A DNA stretch of 31,571 bases, from the IMG/VR virus record IMGVR_UViG_3300006332_001381, positions 1 to 31,571 of that record, one strand, 5' to 3'. Below, in pieces: positions 1,884-22,200 of this stretch. Under the pieces are notes generated by a model. It was not told the origin of the DNA, did not search any database, and saw only the letters and a program-made list of their open reading frames with translations. Positions within the stretch are counted from its first letter, which is position 1. The number at the start of each line of letters is the position of its first letter. The position numbers and the translations under genes are program-made. The stretch comes from a virus.

Positions 1884-4800
1884 CTATTTGGAACGAACGG
1901 TTGATAAATACTCAATGCTCTTAATTCTATACTGTGCTCCGTTATTTCCAGAGACCTTTTCACCACCCATAATTGCATATCCAACAGCACCAGAACCTGT
2001 GGTATCTCCACCAGCATTAGTGAATGTAATTGTTGGGTGTATATTATATGAGTTGTCTACACTCTGCACATAACCATATCCACCATTTGTAATGGTAATT
2101 CCTCCAACTTGGTCGCCAGCAACTGTCATAGTAACTGTTCCTGTTGCCTGTATATCACCAATAGATTCAAATGCCACTGTTGGTATTGCGGAATAGTTTG
2201 TTCCTGCATTTTGAATTACAACATCAACAATCGTGCTATTCTCAGCAAATTTATATAGATATCCAGCTTCTCCAACATTAACATCACCAGTATTGAATGC
2301 AGTGACATCCTTTAACTGAAGAACTTTATTTGATAAATCCCAAGAAACTACTGTTCCTCTAACACCAGATGTATCTCCAGTAACAATTTCATTAACACTA
2401 AAGTTTTGACCATTACCATCCAAAGCATCCAAAGTTATATTAACAAGAGCATTGTGCTCTCTTCCTTCACTAAGTCCACCTGCTATGGCAATATTTGCAT
2501 ATCTAAATGGTACATTAGCATCTTTGACGCTATCACCAACTTGTAATAATGTAGTATTTGTTCCACCTTGCGTTTCTTCAATACCATAAAGAGAACTGTA
2601 AATACCACCATCCAAACTAATTTGATTCTCATACTCAGTTGATGTATTAACTAGATCAGGTATACCATCACCAGCACCCTCATTTTCTAGAATATCTTGG
2701 AATTCTTTATCCTGAAGAGTTGAAATTGGATTTGTAAGAGTTATAATTGTAGATCCTAATACAGTAAGAACAACATGTGGAGAATCAAGAGCACCAGATG
2801 CACCAGCAACACCAGCATCAAATTGAACTGTAGCTTCTTCACTAGATGGAATACCACCATCAATAAATGCTAATTCGTCAATTTCAAATGTTAATAGTAG
2901 TTCTCTAGTGCTGGCATTCCAATCATAAACTTTAGCAACTTTATTACTAGCACTTTCAACTCTACGAATTACTCGATCACCAATATTGAATTTATATGTA
3001 GAAATACCACTATCATCATTTTGACCATCATCAAGAATAACCCTCTGGTCATAATTAAAGTTTACACCTCTAGTAATACCAGCAAATTTTTCATCTGTTT
3101 TACTAGTATATGCAATAGTTTCATAGTCTAAAATAAATTCACCAGATCCAGGAAAAGCACCAGTATTTGATACATAAATTTCACTAGCAGATGTAGTTAC
3201 ATCTTTAGTAAGACCACTCAAGTAAATATTTTTGGCATTATTTGCCTGACGAGCTCTAGTCTTACGTTTAAGATTTACCAATCTTGTAAATATTACATTT
3301 GGTGGAGTAGTATACCCACTACCTTGATCAGTTACAGTAATGCCTGTAATCTGACCCTGATCGATTGTAGCAACTGCTTTTGCACCTATACCTCCACCAC
3401 CAGATATAAGAATATATGGAGGTTCCTGATAGAATTCTCCAGGATCTGCAATAGCAATTGAAGTAATCTTTCCAGTAGTATCGATTTTTGCAGATCCTTG
3501 AGCGTCCTGACCTCCTCCTCCTTCAAAAACCATGGTGGGAGCACTACTATAACTTCTACCAGAATTTAATAATGTTAAACCTGTAACTGTCTGCACTGTA
3601 GATGTTCCAGTAGCACCAGATCCTTCACCACCTAATATTCTTGCCTTTGTAGTATTATAATAATTATCACCATTCTTAGTCATCTTAACATAAGCTATTG
3701 CTCCACTATCATTAAGTACAACGTCTCCAGCAGCACCATCAGGAAAATCTGATAGAACTTCTGGAACAGAATTTCCCTCAAATAGTGGTGTACCGTAAAA
3801 TTTACGTCCAATAACATATGGATAAACAGGATTTCCACTGCTATCCTCTGTCATAAAATATGCATATGTACCATTTGGATAGTCTGGAGTTACTGCAAAC
3901 TTTCCATTAAATTCATCAAGAGTTCCAACACTAGAATCGTAAATATAATCTTGTACCAAATCACCTAAAATATAACCACTTTGAACAGTTCTTAATCCCA
4001 AACCACTAGTTTGATATCCAAAAATGTATAACGCATCAGGTGCTGTTACTGGAACAACAATTTGAATTCTTCTTTGGGTTGCTGCGTTAAATCCAGCAAT
4101 ATATGCAGCATAAGTTACTGTAGAACCATCTAATGTATATGTGACACCTAATTCATACAAATATGAAGTAGTTCCAATACTACTAGAAGGATGCCATCCA
4201 CCATCAGTTTCTGAAAATAGTAAAAACTCACCATTATTAGAAGCATCATCCTGATTGAAAATAAAAGTTTTTCCTCTACCTAAAGATAAGAAATTAGGTC
4301 TAGAACCACCAAATAAAAATTCTCCATTAGAAACTGTTACAGTATAAGTGGTTGTACCAGTCGTATTTACAGCAGGTCTTGCACCAGGAAGTTCTGCAGT
4401 AGTTCTTAATCGATGTGAAGATACTTGCCTTACAGCAGTACCACTGGAATTATATCCCCAAGGACCATAAATGGGATATCCATCATAGGACATACCAAGA
4501 ATTTTAGAGTGTCCATCACTACGACGACTATAATCTAAAGTTCCACCAGATCCATAATAATTTTCAACATAATAATTATTGGTTAATGTCTCAGCACTAG
4601 TATCTGTACTGAGAATCATATATCCTTCATCACCAGAAGAACCAGCCATATTTGGATGATTCTTACAGTAGTAGTAAATTTTATTCGTTTCATCCGCATT
4701 CATTATGAATATAGGAGCATATTCATTTTCATAATCTGCTGCTGGATCCGATGACGCTCCAGTACTTGTATAATAAAGAGTTCCTGGAGTATCGTTATGT

Positions 4801-6008
4801 GTACCGTCAGCAGTTGTACTGAATCTAATTGGATGAGTATTATTAGTGGAATCTGATTGATTAAATTTAATCAAATAATTCCTTTTTACTGTAATATTTT
4901 CTGGAGCAAAGTAAAATGTTCCTGGTGTAAAAGTACCAAACTTTGCTGCATCTGCACCAAAGTCGATATAATATCCATTAAAAATATATGGATCCTCTGA
5001 AATTTTAAATGAAAATCCTGTAGAACCTAAACATAAGTCATTCTTAGAGAAAGAAGACCCAGTAAGTTGTCTCAAATAAATTCTAGTTACAACATTACTA
5101 CCATCTCTTACTACCTTAGAAATTTCTCCAGAAGCATTACCACCAATTTCATCAATAGTTCTACCTACAGCAAAGGTTCCTAGTGTTTCATCAACATTTG
5201 TAACATCTAGAGAAACATTAGCAGTTTCAACCTTTACGTTCCATGTAAATTGTTTAATTTTTCCCCATTCAAAAACACCATTTCCGAGTTTAAATTCATC
5301 AAGAGTTTTATTTGAATGATAATATCTTACATTTCCTTCAGTTACAGTATCATAAACACTATTACTTTTAACATAATCATATTTTACTGAATCGATGGCA
5401 AAGTTAGTTGGTGCATTTCCTGTACTTCCCCATTCTGGTGTATGTAAAAGACCACCATTAGCAAAAATACCGAGTACTTTATTATCTTGTTCTGTTCTAA
5501 CAGTAGGATGAGGTACATCTTTACCTCCTCTATAGATAAATGTTTGATCAAAACTTCTATCAATTAATGGTCCACCACCAGGTGCTGCTTCTTCTTGAAT
5601 ATAAGTGGGTTTAGGGTGATTATCAGATTGTATACGAAGTCTATCTGTATCTGCACTAAAAGTTCCTGAAATTAAAGAGTTTGGATGATCTTGCCAAATT
5701 CTATTAACATCAAAAGAATTTATAACATTTGGTGTTTCTTGTTCTGGGAAAAACTGTAATCTTAGAGGATCATAACCTTGACCTCTTTCGAGAACTCTTA
5801 CATGAATAATTTGTCCAGAATCAGAATCAATAATAGGATACAGTAATGCTTCCTGATCTGGAGTGCCACAACCAGATATAGTTAATCGTGGTGGATTTGC
5901 TGAGTCATATCCCGATCCACCGTCTAATACTCGTATTGCACGTACACCAAAATTCTCATCAAAAATTGGTTTGATGGAGGCACCTGTACCTGGAACAGTT
6001 CTAGTCAT
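1884..6008 (-). CDS. Mosaic structural protein with GxGY repeats, cupredoxin-like and YHYH-like domains (1,374 aa)
   Basis: No T4 counterpart is recognised. Seen in order: GxGY beta-repeats near the N-terminus (DGGSGYDSANPP, ERGQGYDPL); a cupredoxin-like domain at about 363-465 with His392, Cys448, His451 and Met454 in a C-x2-H-x2-M loop; a YHYH-like domain starting with DGYPIYGPWGY (about 507-518) and resuming at about 680-735 (LDEFNGKFAVTPDYPNGTYA); between these halves a second cupredoxin-like domain whose four ligand positions read E594, G664, T667 and L670; then more GxGY repeats (RSYSSAP, GSGYTTPP, TNYSAIP, GYGYVQ) and beta modules to the end. There is no signal peptide or membrane segment. 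It starts 5 bases after the preceding stop, with no visible Shine-Dalgarno sequence. The position among baseplate genes and the shared modules point to a virion surface or baseplate-fibre protein. That role is inference. Confidence 0.85.
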   Translation of the reverse strand: MTRTVPGTGASIKPIFDENFGVRAIRVLDGGSGYDSANPPRLTISGCGTPDQEALLYPIIDSDSGQIIHVRVLERGQGYDPLRLQFFPEQETPNVINSFDVNRIWQDHPNSLISGTFSADTDRLRIQSDNHPKPTYIQEEAAPGGGPLIDRSFDQTFIYRGGKDVPHPTVRTEQDNKVLGIFANGGLLHTPEWGSTGNAPTNFAIDSVKYDYVKSNSVYDTVTEGNVRYYHSNKTLDEFKLGNGVFEWGKIKQFTWNVKVETANVSLDVTNVDETLGTFAVGRTIDEIGGNASGEISKVVRDGSNVVTRIYLRQLTGSSFSKNDLCLGSTGFSFKISEDPYIFNGYYIDFGADAAKFGTFTPGTFYFAPENITVKRNYLIKFNQSDSTNNTHPIRFSTTADGTHNDTPGTLYYTSTGASSDPAADYENEYAPIFIMNADETNKIYYYCKNHPNMAGSSGDEGYMILSTDTSAETLTNNYYVENYYGSGGTLDYSRRSDGHSKILGMSYDGYPIYGPWGYNSSGTAVRQVSSHRLRTTAELPGARPAVNTTGTTTYTVTVSNGEFLFGGSRPNFLSLGRGKTFIFNQDDASNNGEFLLFSETDGGWHPSSSIGTTSYLYELGVTYTLDGSTVTYAAYIAGFNAATQRRIQIVVPVTAPDALYIFGYQTSGLGLRTVQSGYILGDLVQDYIYDSSVGTLDEFNGKFAVTPDYPNGTYAYFMTEDSSGNPVYPYVIGRKFYGTPLFEGNSVPEVLSDFPDGAAGDVVLNDSGAIAYVKMTKNGDNYYNTTKARILGGEGSGATGTSTVQTVTGLTLLNSGRSYSSAPTMVFEGGGGQDAQGSAKIDTTGKITSIAIADPGEFYQEPPYILISGGGGIGAKAVATIDQGQITGITVTDQGSGYTTPPNVIFTRLVNLKRKTRARQANNAKNIYLSGLTKDVTTSASEIYVSNTGAFPGSGEFILDYETIAYTSKTDEKFAGITRGVNFNYDQRVILDDGQNDDSGISTYKFNIGDRVIRRVESASNKVAKVYDWNASTRELLLTFEIDELAFIDGGIPSSEEATVQFDAGVAGASGALDSPHVVLTVLGSTIITLTNPISTLQDKEFQDILENEGAGDGIPDLVNTSTEYENQISLDGGIYSSLYGIEETQGGTNTTLLQVGDSVKDANVPFRYANIAIAGGLSEGREHNALVNITLDALDGNGQNFSVNEIVTGDTSGVRGTVVSWDLSNKVLQLKDVTAFNTGDVNVGEAGYLYKFAENSTIVDVVIQNAGTNYSAIPTVAFESIGDIQATGTVTMTVAGDQVGGITITNGGYGYVQSVDNSYNIHPTITFTNAGGDTTGSGAVGYAIMGGEKVSGNNGAQYRIKSIEYLSTVRSK

Positions 6009-6013
6009 TTATA

Positions 6014-7237
6014 TCAGTTTAATATATTGATAGTGCCGTTCATAAGAGAATGAACAGTGCATTGATAATAAAGAACGTTTGGACAATTCATAGGAACAGT
6101 CCAATAAAGGATACTTGTTCCACTACCAGATTGACCCTCTGTAAATGGAGTACCACTCAATCCTTGAGTACTTTGAATTCTAAATGGGTGGTTAGTACCA
6201 TTTGCACCATTATCAAATGCGTATGTCATACCTCGCATAACATACAATGTTGGATCTTCCGTAGCTGCAGCAAATCCAGGACCGTCAAATGTGAAGTGAT
6301 TAGCACCACTAGCACTCAATTCCCACCAAGTCATAGGACTGCGAGTTACAACCCAGTCAGTTCCATTCCAATATAAAGAATCTCCCTGAGTAATAGCAGG
6401 TACATCAGTATCAGTTAATGCAGCAAAAGTTGAAGTTAAAGTTCCATTAAACGCAACTGTAACTGTATCACCAGAAATAGAAGTTACAATATCATTTCCA
6501 CCAGCTATAGTAAGTGTGTCTGTAGTGGAGTTGGCAGTTGATGTTCCAGTATCACCAGCAACCGAGGCAAATAAATTTTGTAAACTCGCACCAGCAGCAT
6601 CATCACCAGGAATAAACTTACTTCCACTAGCACTCCACTTTAAAACTTGTCCATCTGCAATTGGAGTGGATGTAATATCAATATCATTTAAAAGATTAAC
6701 ACTAGAATACTCAGTAATAAGTTTTGCTCTTACATCACCAGCACCACCAGCAGTGATGTTAATATTCACATAAGGATTATCATCACCATCAACCGTAAAG
6801 AAATAACCAGTATTAGTAGCTGCAGGTGCATTACCAAGAGCAGTATACTCATTTTTATAGGAAATAGTTGATCCTACACTAACACTTCCAGTAGCACCGT
6901 CAAAAGTAGCAGTTTGACTGCCAGCAGTGATAAGAACATCTCCATTTCCATTAGGAGCAATAGTAATATTTCCATTTGAAGAAGAAATAATACTATTTCC
7001 AGCAACATCTAATGCAGAAGTTAACGCATTATAATTACCAGCAACAAAATTAGTGCCATTATATTTCAATACTTGGCCAGTAGCTGGATTGGAAAGATCT
7101 ATACTTAAAGAGGTATTGTTTCCAAGGGCGGTATATATTTCATTAAAATTATCATTAATTTTATCACCGCCACTTCTCAGCGTATCACCTGTATTATCAT
7201 TAGCTGTAGTACCAATGTTTAGGGATTGTTTAGCCAT
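6014..7237 (-). CDS. Tail-fibre-like protein with C-terminal cupredoxin-like domain (407 aa)
   Basis: The N-terminus (NIGTTANDNTGDTLRSGGDK, then INDNFNEIYTALG) is the short segment found at the start of many T4-like phage fibre proteins. The middle (about 60-300) is a low-complexity beta-rich shaft with repeated phrases such as GQVLKYNGTNFVAG and GQVLKWSASGSKFIPG. The last 105 residues form a cupredoxin-like domain: NHPFRIQS contributes His350 and YYQCTVHSLMNG contributes Cys393, His396 and Met399, the four positions of a type 1 copper site with C-x2-H-x2-M spacing. Whether copper is bound is not known; the fold may only serve as a knob or trimer tip. A perfect late promoter lies 20 bases before the ATG, so this gene can start its own late transcript. 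GTGAG just before the ATG is a weak ribosome site. Confidence 0.87.
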   Translation of the reverse strand: MAKQSLNIGTTANDNTGDTLRSGGDKINDNFNEIYTALGNNTSLSIDLSNPATGQVLKYNGTNFVAGNYNALTSALDVAGNSIISSSNGNITIAPNGNGDVLITAGSQTATFDGATGSVSVGSTISYKNEYTALGNAPAATNTGYFFTVDGDDNPYVNINITAGGAGDVRAKLITEYSSVNLLNDIDITSTPIADGQVLKWSASGSKFIPGDDAAGASLQNLFASVAGDTGTSTANSTTDTLTIAGGNDIVTSISGDTVTVAFNGTLTSTFAALTDTDVPAITQGDSLYWNGTDWVVTRSPMTWWELSASGANHFTFDGPGFAAATEDPTLYVMRGMTYAFDNGANGTNHPFRIQSTQGLSGTPFTEGQSGSGTSILYWTVPMNCPNVLYYQCTVHSLMNGTINILN

Positions 7238-19200: not shown

Positions 19201-22200
19201 AAGTGCTCCACCAGCAGTTGTAATTGCTACTAACTCAACCTCAGTTGTTGCAGCACCGATACTATAACGAAGTTTTGCTATAGGTGTTTCTTGTCCAGTT
19301 TCAAGGTTCGATGTTTCTACTTTTGCTGTATCTCCACTTAAATTAGTAACTTTCTCATTGAATAAGTATAATCCAGTGCTGGTTACGTCTGTAACCGAAC
19401 TAAGAGTACCAGAAAATCCTGTCGCACCTACTTGACAATTCTCTCCAATAATAAAGGTACCCTGAGTAACAAATCCGCTGATTACACTACCACTGACACT
19501 AGTTACTGTAAGTCTAGCAGTAGAAACAACGCCAACAAGTTCATTACCAATATTAGGGAAAATACCACTAGTAAATGAAAGTTCGAAATCCTTAGTTGCC
19601 TGTGCAGCTATAGTGACGCTTACATATTTCACACTTGCGGGTGGTCTAGGTGGTTCTGCAAATACGATAGAATCACCCTGAACTTCAAAAGAAGTATTTG
19701 GAGTTTGTGCTACACCATTAAGAACAATTAGAAGTTGATCTCCACTAGCAATAACATTCTCACCATTATTAACAGTAAGTGGGAATTGAGTCTTAACACC
19801 GTCAAATTGACCAGAAATGTCATCTAATCTTTGAACAACAGAAGTTAAGATATTCTCAGATGATGTAAGTCTCTTTTGACGGAATAATACTTCAGTATTA
19901 TTAAATTCAGAATAAATGGGTTCTGCTAAAGCAAAGTTTTGAATATTTGGTACAACTGCTTCTCTAGTAAGTTCAACTGACTTAGTAAGTTCAAAATCGA
20001 TTTCTTTGTTTGCAATATAACCATAATCTTCTAGATTCAGTTCACCAAATACCTTAAATGATGCAGGGTGAACGTTCTTAATAAGAATATCTTTCCAATC
20101 ACCGATGGATACAGAAGACTTAACAGCATAAGAGAAGTCCTGATAGTAGTAAGAGTCTTGAATCTTTTGAATAATTTCGGAAGGTTTACCAACATCATCG
20201 ATAAACTGACCTGTAGTTTTGGTAATAGGACCAATTTCAAGAACACCTTTAGCAATATTAAGATCACTAATAATACCAGAAGACTTAGAAATAACACCAG
20301 TTATACTTTCACCTTTAGTAAATGTATTATCATAATTTACAATTTTAAGAATTCTAGGACCAATTTGCCATCCTTCATTAGTAGACACATATCCAGTAGC
20401 AGTTGCTGTATCTAAAGAACTACCTTGATATACAAGTTCACCCTCTAAGAAAGTTGATGTAATAACATTCGCATCTGCTGTAGCACCAAAAGCTTTGGTT
20501 AATACTTGCTGTCTACCAGTACCAGCGTTTACAAAGGCAAGACCATCACCCAACTCAGCATTTGCAAAAGTAATTGCCAACTTCATTTGATCAGGTTCTA
20601 GAGAGTTGGCAGTACCAGTAATAGCATAATACGTTGTATTTCCATTCAATCTACCAGTAGCACCTGAAGATAATGGGAATTCTGTACCTTCTCCAGTATC
20701 AACTACATTTAACTTGACCTCAGAACCATTTACAATTCCATGAGGGAATGCAAATTGTAAAAGACCCAAGTCAAGGTTAACGACATAGTTAAATGAAGAT
20801 CTAAGTTCGACTGTAGGTGAAGAAGAATATCCAGCACCAGGATCTTTAATGATAATACTTTCAATTCTTCCATTTCTAATAGTTGCTTCCGCAATAGCAC
20901 CAGATCCACCACCACCACTTAAAAGAACTGCAGGTGCTTGAGAATATCCAGAACCAGGATCAGTAACGGTAATACTATCAAGAATACTTGTAGAAGTTAA
21001 CTGAGCATTAATTGGGAATGTAATTTCAGGACGAAGTGTGTAATCATGAGTATAATCATAACCAAAGTTATTGTTCTTAAGTTTCTTAATCTTACCAACA
21101 TTTGTTCCTTTTGCGAAAATTACCGCACCAGTACCAAATGCAGGAATGACTACGTTAATAACTGCTCCAGATCCAGTTAAACCTGATCCAAGAATACCCT
21201 CAATAGATTCAATATCAATAGATGCAGTAGTATATCCTTTACCAGGAGATGCTACAGCAGCACCAGTGATTGTACCTGATCCAACAGTATCATCAAACTC
21301 AACAGTAATGGTTGCTTTACCACCTTCACCATCACCTGCAACAGGGACTTCATAGTAAACACCTGGAGCATATTCAGTACCACCATCATTAACTACAATC
21401 TTCTCAATCTGTCTGAATGATGCAATATCACTAATGATAGGTAACTTCTGATAGAAACCACCTGGAGATACTAATTTAATAGTATTGATAGGTCCAACTG
21501 CTCTCGTAGAAGTAGTTGAATAGTATGAATAAACCTGATCAAATTCATCTGTACCAACTTCAGCATTAGTCTTTTCAGGTTCCTTAAGTAATTGGAATCT
21601 AAACTCAGTATCGGTTATAACTTCAGCAACTGAGAATGTGCCTTCATATGGAGTTGTGATAACATCAATGAATGAATTCTCACCAACTGGAGAATCAGAA
21701 CCAGTCCTAGATGGGTCAAAGTAATAGGAGATATTAGTTACATCACCCAATACAGAGAATTTAACAAATGGATAGTTTCCAGCACCTAGAGGAACACCTG
21801 GAGTACCTTCTCTTGTTATGTTGTTAAATGAGTATTCTAGTTTGTACTGGTTGTCTTGTGAGAATGACAAGTAGTAGTTAAGGTTTGAAGTATCAGATAC
21901 ATCAAAGACATACTGATGATTTCTAGTAAACTCTAGGGTTGGGTGCTTCGCATATATGTTAACACTAGCAATAGCGTTATTGTTAAATGTTGGCTCACTT
22001 ACAGCAGTTGATCTAATACCAAGTGTATATTCCCTAGATCCAATTATCTGATCGATAAAGAATGATCCATTGAATTGATCACCTTGGAATCCTTCAGAGA
22101 AGATGATATCACCTACTTTGAATCCATGAGGAGAGTTTGATGTAAAGTATACTAAATTGGTGTTATTAACAGCATTTCTAATAATATCTTTTTCAAGACG

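Follow-up and report, generated by a model that had tools for sequence, protein, structure and literature searches.

A cupredoxin-like domain without copper ligands, inserted in the YHYH domain of a cyanophage baseplate wedge protein

Genomic context and domain architecture

The window analysed here is a whole IMG/VR virus record of 31,571 bases. One of its genes encodes a protein of 1,374 amino acids, residues 1–1373 of which match the PHROG 708 family "baseplate wedge subunit" with 2341 bits. This match over the full length and the synteny with gp9 and gp8 identify it as a full-length Kyanoviridae baseplate wedge protein. Residues 363–735 are 96% identical to a hypothetical protein of Prochlorococcus phage P-SSM7, in which the homologue is located between gp9 and gp8. 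The same region is matched at least partly by 385 records (coverage of at least 80% in 216), demonstrating that this arrangement is widespread among T4-like cyanophages and therefore no assembly artefact. A PDB sequence search with residues 363–735 returned nothing meaningful. The features of the gene are the following:

1884–6008, minus strand: baseplate wedge protein, 1,374 aa (PHROG 708; T4-GC 399 in P-SSM7)
4605–4922, minus strand: domain 1, residues 363–468, cupredoxin-like, complete putative His-Cys-His-Met ligand set
4833–4835, minus strand: codon of His392, domain 1 ligand position, conserved in 80/80
4647–4667, minus strand: Cys448-x2-His451-x2-Met454 loop, domain 1 ligand positions, conserved in 80/80
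4359–4577, minus strand: YHYH N-terminal half, residues 478–550 (Pfam PF14240 stretch 4353–4553; domain HMM)
3978–4370, minus strand: domain 2, residues ~547–677, predicted cupredoxin fold without ligands, inserted in YHYH (AlphaFold2 and cupredoxin matches)
4227–4229, minus strand: codon of Glu594, at the first His ligand position (never His in 119 loci)
3999–4019, minus strand: Gly664-x2-Thr667-x2-Leu670, at the Cys, His and Met positions, between predicted strands 659–664 and 672–677
3804–3983, minus strand: YHYH C-terminal half, residues 676–735 (Pfam PF14240 stretch 3840–3977)

In the following, cupredoxin-like domains with the ligand set are called live and those without it dead.

Some relatives are more elaborate: S-RIM8-like proteins carry an additional insertion of ~150–170 aa between domain 1 and the YHYH N-terminal half, and P-SSM3-like proteins an additional insert within the C-terminal half (loci L083, L135-L144 and L147-L158 cover both types). 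In P-SSM3 (HQ337021.1, L089:4882-9255), the orthologue is unannotated despite a long open frame of 1,265 codons and may be broken by a frameshift.

The original prediction placed domain 2 between the two halves of a YHYH-like domain, in agreement with two Pfam stretches at 4353–4553 (profile positions 78–144) and 3840–3977 (139–184), which score 42.6 and 28.3 bits against a curated cut-off of 25. It also described the YHYH domain of the 7,842-aa virion protein (7261–30789, minus strand) as uninterrupted except for a spacer of about 60 residues. That domain does lie in one stretch, but it takes up 166 aa for 128 profile positions, so that the extra length is ~38 residues instead. The 7,842-aa protein also contains many near-identical repeats at residues ~4100–6500, such as TYPRATDPxxx and HTFVSAxxxAV.

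YHYH domains have been predicted to be zinc-dependent hydrolases with a triad of histidines and an aspartate (PMC7824862). Bacterial members read EYHHHVNPxCLY...HSPIIGYAFDG, and the phage protein has ENYYGSGGTLDYSRRSDGHSKILGMSYDG at this place: unlike them, the phage copy is split by a cupredoxin and lacks the YHHH-like His-rich motif upstream of HSPIIGYAFDG. Because this motif is missing, hydrolase activity of the phage copy appears doubtful. We had also considered GTYAYF as a sign of a lost YHYH motif, a candidate that was rejected since bacterial members are identical there and the His-rich motif lies upstream. The YHYH domain is uninterrupted in the 36 bacterial or archaeal loci with readable motifs (80 relatives kept from a genome scan), with the exception of L225 (NZVD01000020.1). 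This contig of 22.9 kb belongs to a Rhodopirellula MAG. Its baseplate protein is cyanophage-like, with a live domain 1 and a dead domain 2, and the contig is probably misbinned phage DNA.

Domain 2 has a predicted cupredoxin fold and no ligands

Domain 1 carries the His-Cys-His-Met set expected of a type-1 copper cupredoxin, as far as its residues can tell. H392, C448, H451 and M454 are invariant in 80/80 window-like rows, and the set is kept in every complete domain 1 copy, that is in 103/103 preceding domains of this type (loci L044 and L045 are likewise live). Amicyanin has the same C-x2-H-x2-M spacing, and a CTPHPFM loop of this kind appears in the title of PDB entry 2vmj. Within the 1,374-aa protein, domain 1 is the only one with a recognised, putative type-1-copper-like ligand set of this amicyanin-like spacing. 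It is modelled less confidently than domain 2, with pLDDT values of 50–77 per block (AlphaFold2).

Domain 2 aligns with domain 1, as had been proposed: profile-profile comparison gives E = 4e-7 to 2e-6 at a probability of 90–93% over 43–49 columns, with E594 falling under H392. A joint cupredoxin HMM scores domains 1 and 2 at 126.9 and 164.7 bits, both being among its training rows. All residues named at the outset are correct (E594, G664, T667 and L670 in domain 2, besides the four ligands of domain 1), and so is the statement that every ligand has gone from domain 2. Among loci of the same architecture, 0/119 keep any ligand at the aligned positions, where 119 counts loci rather than phages and certain contigs are present twice. 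At the first position, the dead copies mostly have N, E, Q or S, and never H; the Cys position is A, G or S in 119/119, and a CxxHxxM loop occurs in none; T, N, S or A mostly replace the second His, and L, Y, H or A the Met, with His there in 17/119. No Cys at all is found in 109 of the 119 copies, and no Met in 74. Across the 80 window-like rows, these positions are variable. Domain 2 thus lacks the His-Cys-His(-Met) set of type-1 copper cupredoxins.

Structure prediction nevertheless returned a cupredoxin for residues ~547–677, the outcome on which the original prediction had been staked. With 54 homologues, AlphaFold2 modelled domain 2 at a pLDDT of mostly 77–96, with one loop block near 51. 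The model resembles auracyanin A (Z 8.6, rmsd 2.7 over 100 residues), AcoP (E 4.5e-4), and rusticyanin and laccase domains (Z about 8), and Foldseek/VIA match both dead and live inserted copies to cupredoxins. The predicted structure is thus a Greek-key β-sandwich of the cupredoxin type, at modest Z values. In the model, residues 594, 664, 667 and 670 lie before a strand, at a strand end and in the loop preceding the last strand, and the ligands H131, C207, H210 and M213 are placed in the same way in the model of a live ACG-2014d homologue.

Live inserted domains and further losses of the site

Homologues were examined for ligands elsewhere in the domain, and these were found in the same places as in domain 1. 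Proteins of the ACG-2014d and S-RIM14 type (L081, L086) resemble the window protein in gene place between gp9 and gp8, in the YHYH insertion point and in fold. They have no domain 1, yet their inserted cupredoxin keeps all four ligands, reading NDAHPLAL...YFCRYHGLM in ACG-2014d and NTGHGILF...YFCYNHANM in S-RIM14. Of the inserted copies in proteins lacking domain 1, 26/26 carry the complete set; they come from about 20 distinct contigs. Domain 2 is therefore a dead ortholog of a live domain. Throughout the baseplate family, a live inserted domain always goes with the absence of domain 1 and a dead one with its presence. This distribution agrees well with the idea of a dead copy beside a live neighbour, the site surviving only where it is of use, but the complementarity depends on essentially one loss event.

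A lineage of proteins of about 3,300 residues with two YHYH modules each (L132-134, L165-178) behaves differently. All detected inserted domains are live here. The domain preceding module 1 is dead, and the one preceding module 2 is mostly live, but dead in L167-171 and L197, where YYVSDVGIKEGK replaces YYVCxxHxxM. In this lineage, the site was thus lost in preceding domains at least twice. In certain modules, both cupredoxin copies are live, and we rejected a strict rule of exactly one live site for this reason; no module with both copies dead was seen among the modules examined. Taken together, the site was lost on several occasions, affecting the preceding domain in some cases and the inserted one in others, and independent events are few.

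Cupredoxin-like domains are also found in other proteins. The window's neighbouring gp9-like protein, a tail-fibre connector (6014–7237, minus strand), ends in a third such domain (6023–6346), which has all ligands (NHPFRI...YYQCTVHSLM), and CxxHxxM was present in 94/94 gp9-like reading frames checked. Ligand loops of C..H...M spacing also occur in tail-fibre proteins. The 7,842-aa protein shows a weak cupredoxin HMM match at residues ~2947–2985 (21835–21951; 14 bits, E 1e-5) with SYYFDPSRTGSDS at the place expected for the Cys-His-Met loop, possibly another dead cupredoxin. Cyanophage PSS2 encodes a stand-alone cupredoxin-like protein of 112 aa (CSPG_00077, L082:5992-6330) without the His and Cys ligands (YYYAVGTAAMGG). 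It is probably identical with BFVD model C7F4C6 (112 aa), which matches the window model with a TM of 0.87 by target.

Phylogeny and selection

In a tree of the YHYH halves that excludes the cupredoxin, the proteins with a dead copy form one clade (100/98), and live-copy proteins as well as the modules of the 3,300-residue proteins fall outside. The nearest relatives and the outgroup copies of the dead clade are live, and one loss in an ancestor would explain this most simply. A tree of the cupredoxin domains, built with the four ligand columns removed, likewise unites the dead copies (100/97) and nests them among the inserted domains and certain tail-protein domains (97/84). Domain 1 stands apart as a distant subfamily, its clade set off by a long stem of 2.0 substitutions. 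An AU test of all inserted domains forming one group, the truncated one of L129 included, gave p = 0.40. The original prediction of a duplication is not borne out by this topology, in which domain 2 joins live inserts from other phages. Domain 2 looks like a long-resident domain, and domain 1 like one that was separately acquired or is a very old relative.

Median dN/dS is 0.24 in domain 2, compared with 0.17 in domain 1 and 0.07 in the YHYH C-terminal half, and domain 2 is still under purifying selection. Dead and live inserted copies share the fold residues R578, G579, F584, W605, H606, R646, P657 and F663, while G671 and R673 do not vary among dead copies but are less strictly conserved in live ones. 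Selection and kept fold residues, combined with drifting ligand positions, fit a structural role in the baseplate wedge, with domain 2 as a bridge between the YHYH halves.

Discussion

We propose that a cupredoxin domain with a complete His-Cys-His-Met site was inserted into a YHYH loop before the phage lineages considered here diverged. All four ligands of domain 2 would then have been lost in an ancestor of the P-SSM7-like phages, a clade that carries an intact domain 1 as well, domain 1 presumably releasing domain 2 from constraint. The β-sandwich may have been retained as a metal-free structural module that holds the two YHYH halves and packs in the baseplate wedge. Domain 1 would supply the sole potential metal site of the module, with copper as the presumed metal, most likely serving virion rigidity or stability and not electron transfer. 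It would not be the sole site in the baseplate, since the window's gp9 contains a live-looking cupredoxin. We assign this whole account a probability of about 0.7; against it stands that the lineage of 3,300-residue proteins tolerates two live copies.

If the presence of domain 1 were coincidental, the ligands of domain 2 would have been lost by plain drift after one accident. One clade and one event are all that this needs, and the site was also lost in the PSS2 112-aa protein, in the first copy of L117 and in preceding domains of the 3,300-residue proteins. However, the partner is live in every paired module examined, few as the independent events are, and the further losses in the 3,300-residue proteins struck the preceding domain while the inserted one was kept; we therefore consider drift rather improbable. 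A tandem duplication in the protein's own lineage, followed by site loss in the inserted copy, would account for the homology of the two domains, and uniting domain 1 with dead domain 2 costs only 5.9 lnL. This sister relationship is disfavoured, though short of formal rejection (AU p = 0.19): the free tree joins domain 2 to live inserts at the same insertion point in phages without domain 1, and besides the long stem of domain 1, its HMM scores domain 2 at only 3.6 bits. Such an origin seems distinctly improbable, more so than drift.

Two further possibilities concern domain 2 itself. Its former ligand loop could have been repurposed to bind a glycan, another wedge protein or another ion, and the invariance of G671 and R673 in dead copies suggests a loop that was remodelled rather than merely decayed. 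W605-H606, however, are shared with live copies and so constitute no new site, and the replaced ligand positions vary freely, which leaves repurposing unlikely, if somewhat less so than duplication. That domain 2 is still a copper domain whose misaligned ligands lie elsewhere is very improbable: His does occupy the Met position in 17 copies, and His and Met residues are scattered within the domain, but most copies lack Cys altogether and many lack Met, and the predicted strands put 594, 664, 667 and 670 where a cupredoxin site belongs.

Ligand loss beside a live domain 1 thus remains our preferred explanation. It could be extended to the suggestion that the baseplate cupredoxins truly bind copper and that selection prevents any YHYH module with cupredoxins from losing its last live site, the partner being free to lose its own, which would appear as reciprocal loss between lineages. 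We regard this extension as speculative and would bet against it, if less firmly than against drift.

The predicted fold of domain 2 is like that of single-domain cupredoxins such as auracyanin A, rusticyanin, AcoP and those with an amicyanin-type CxxHxxM loop (Z up to 8.6), and the ligand pattern of domain 1 is equivalent to theirs; domain 2, in contrast, is ligand-free and sits within a virion protein as an insert. Multicopper oxidases, two-domain laccases and coagulation factors V and VIII contain several cupredoxin domains per chain, certain ones without type-1 ligands, and loss of the copper site in duplicated cupredoxin domains of multidomain oxidases is well known. Unlike these enzymes and factors, the phage protein is structural and shows no pattern of a mononuclear or trinuclear centre. 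No description of cupredoxins in phage baseplates was found in the literature searched, and the combination seen here, a phage YHYH domain interrupted by a cupredoxin and a site lost reciprocally between lineages, appears to be undescribed there. These phages rank among the most abundant viruses in the sea, and the domain in which the protein retains its site differs between two of their lineages: a natural experiment on whether metal sites in the virion matter.
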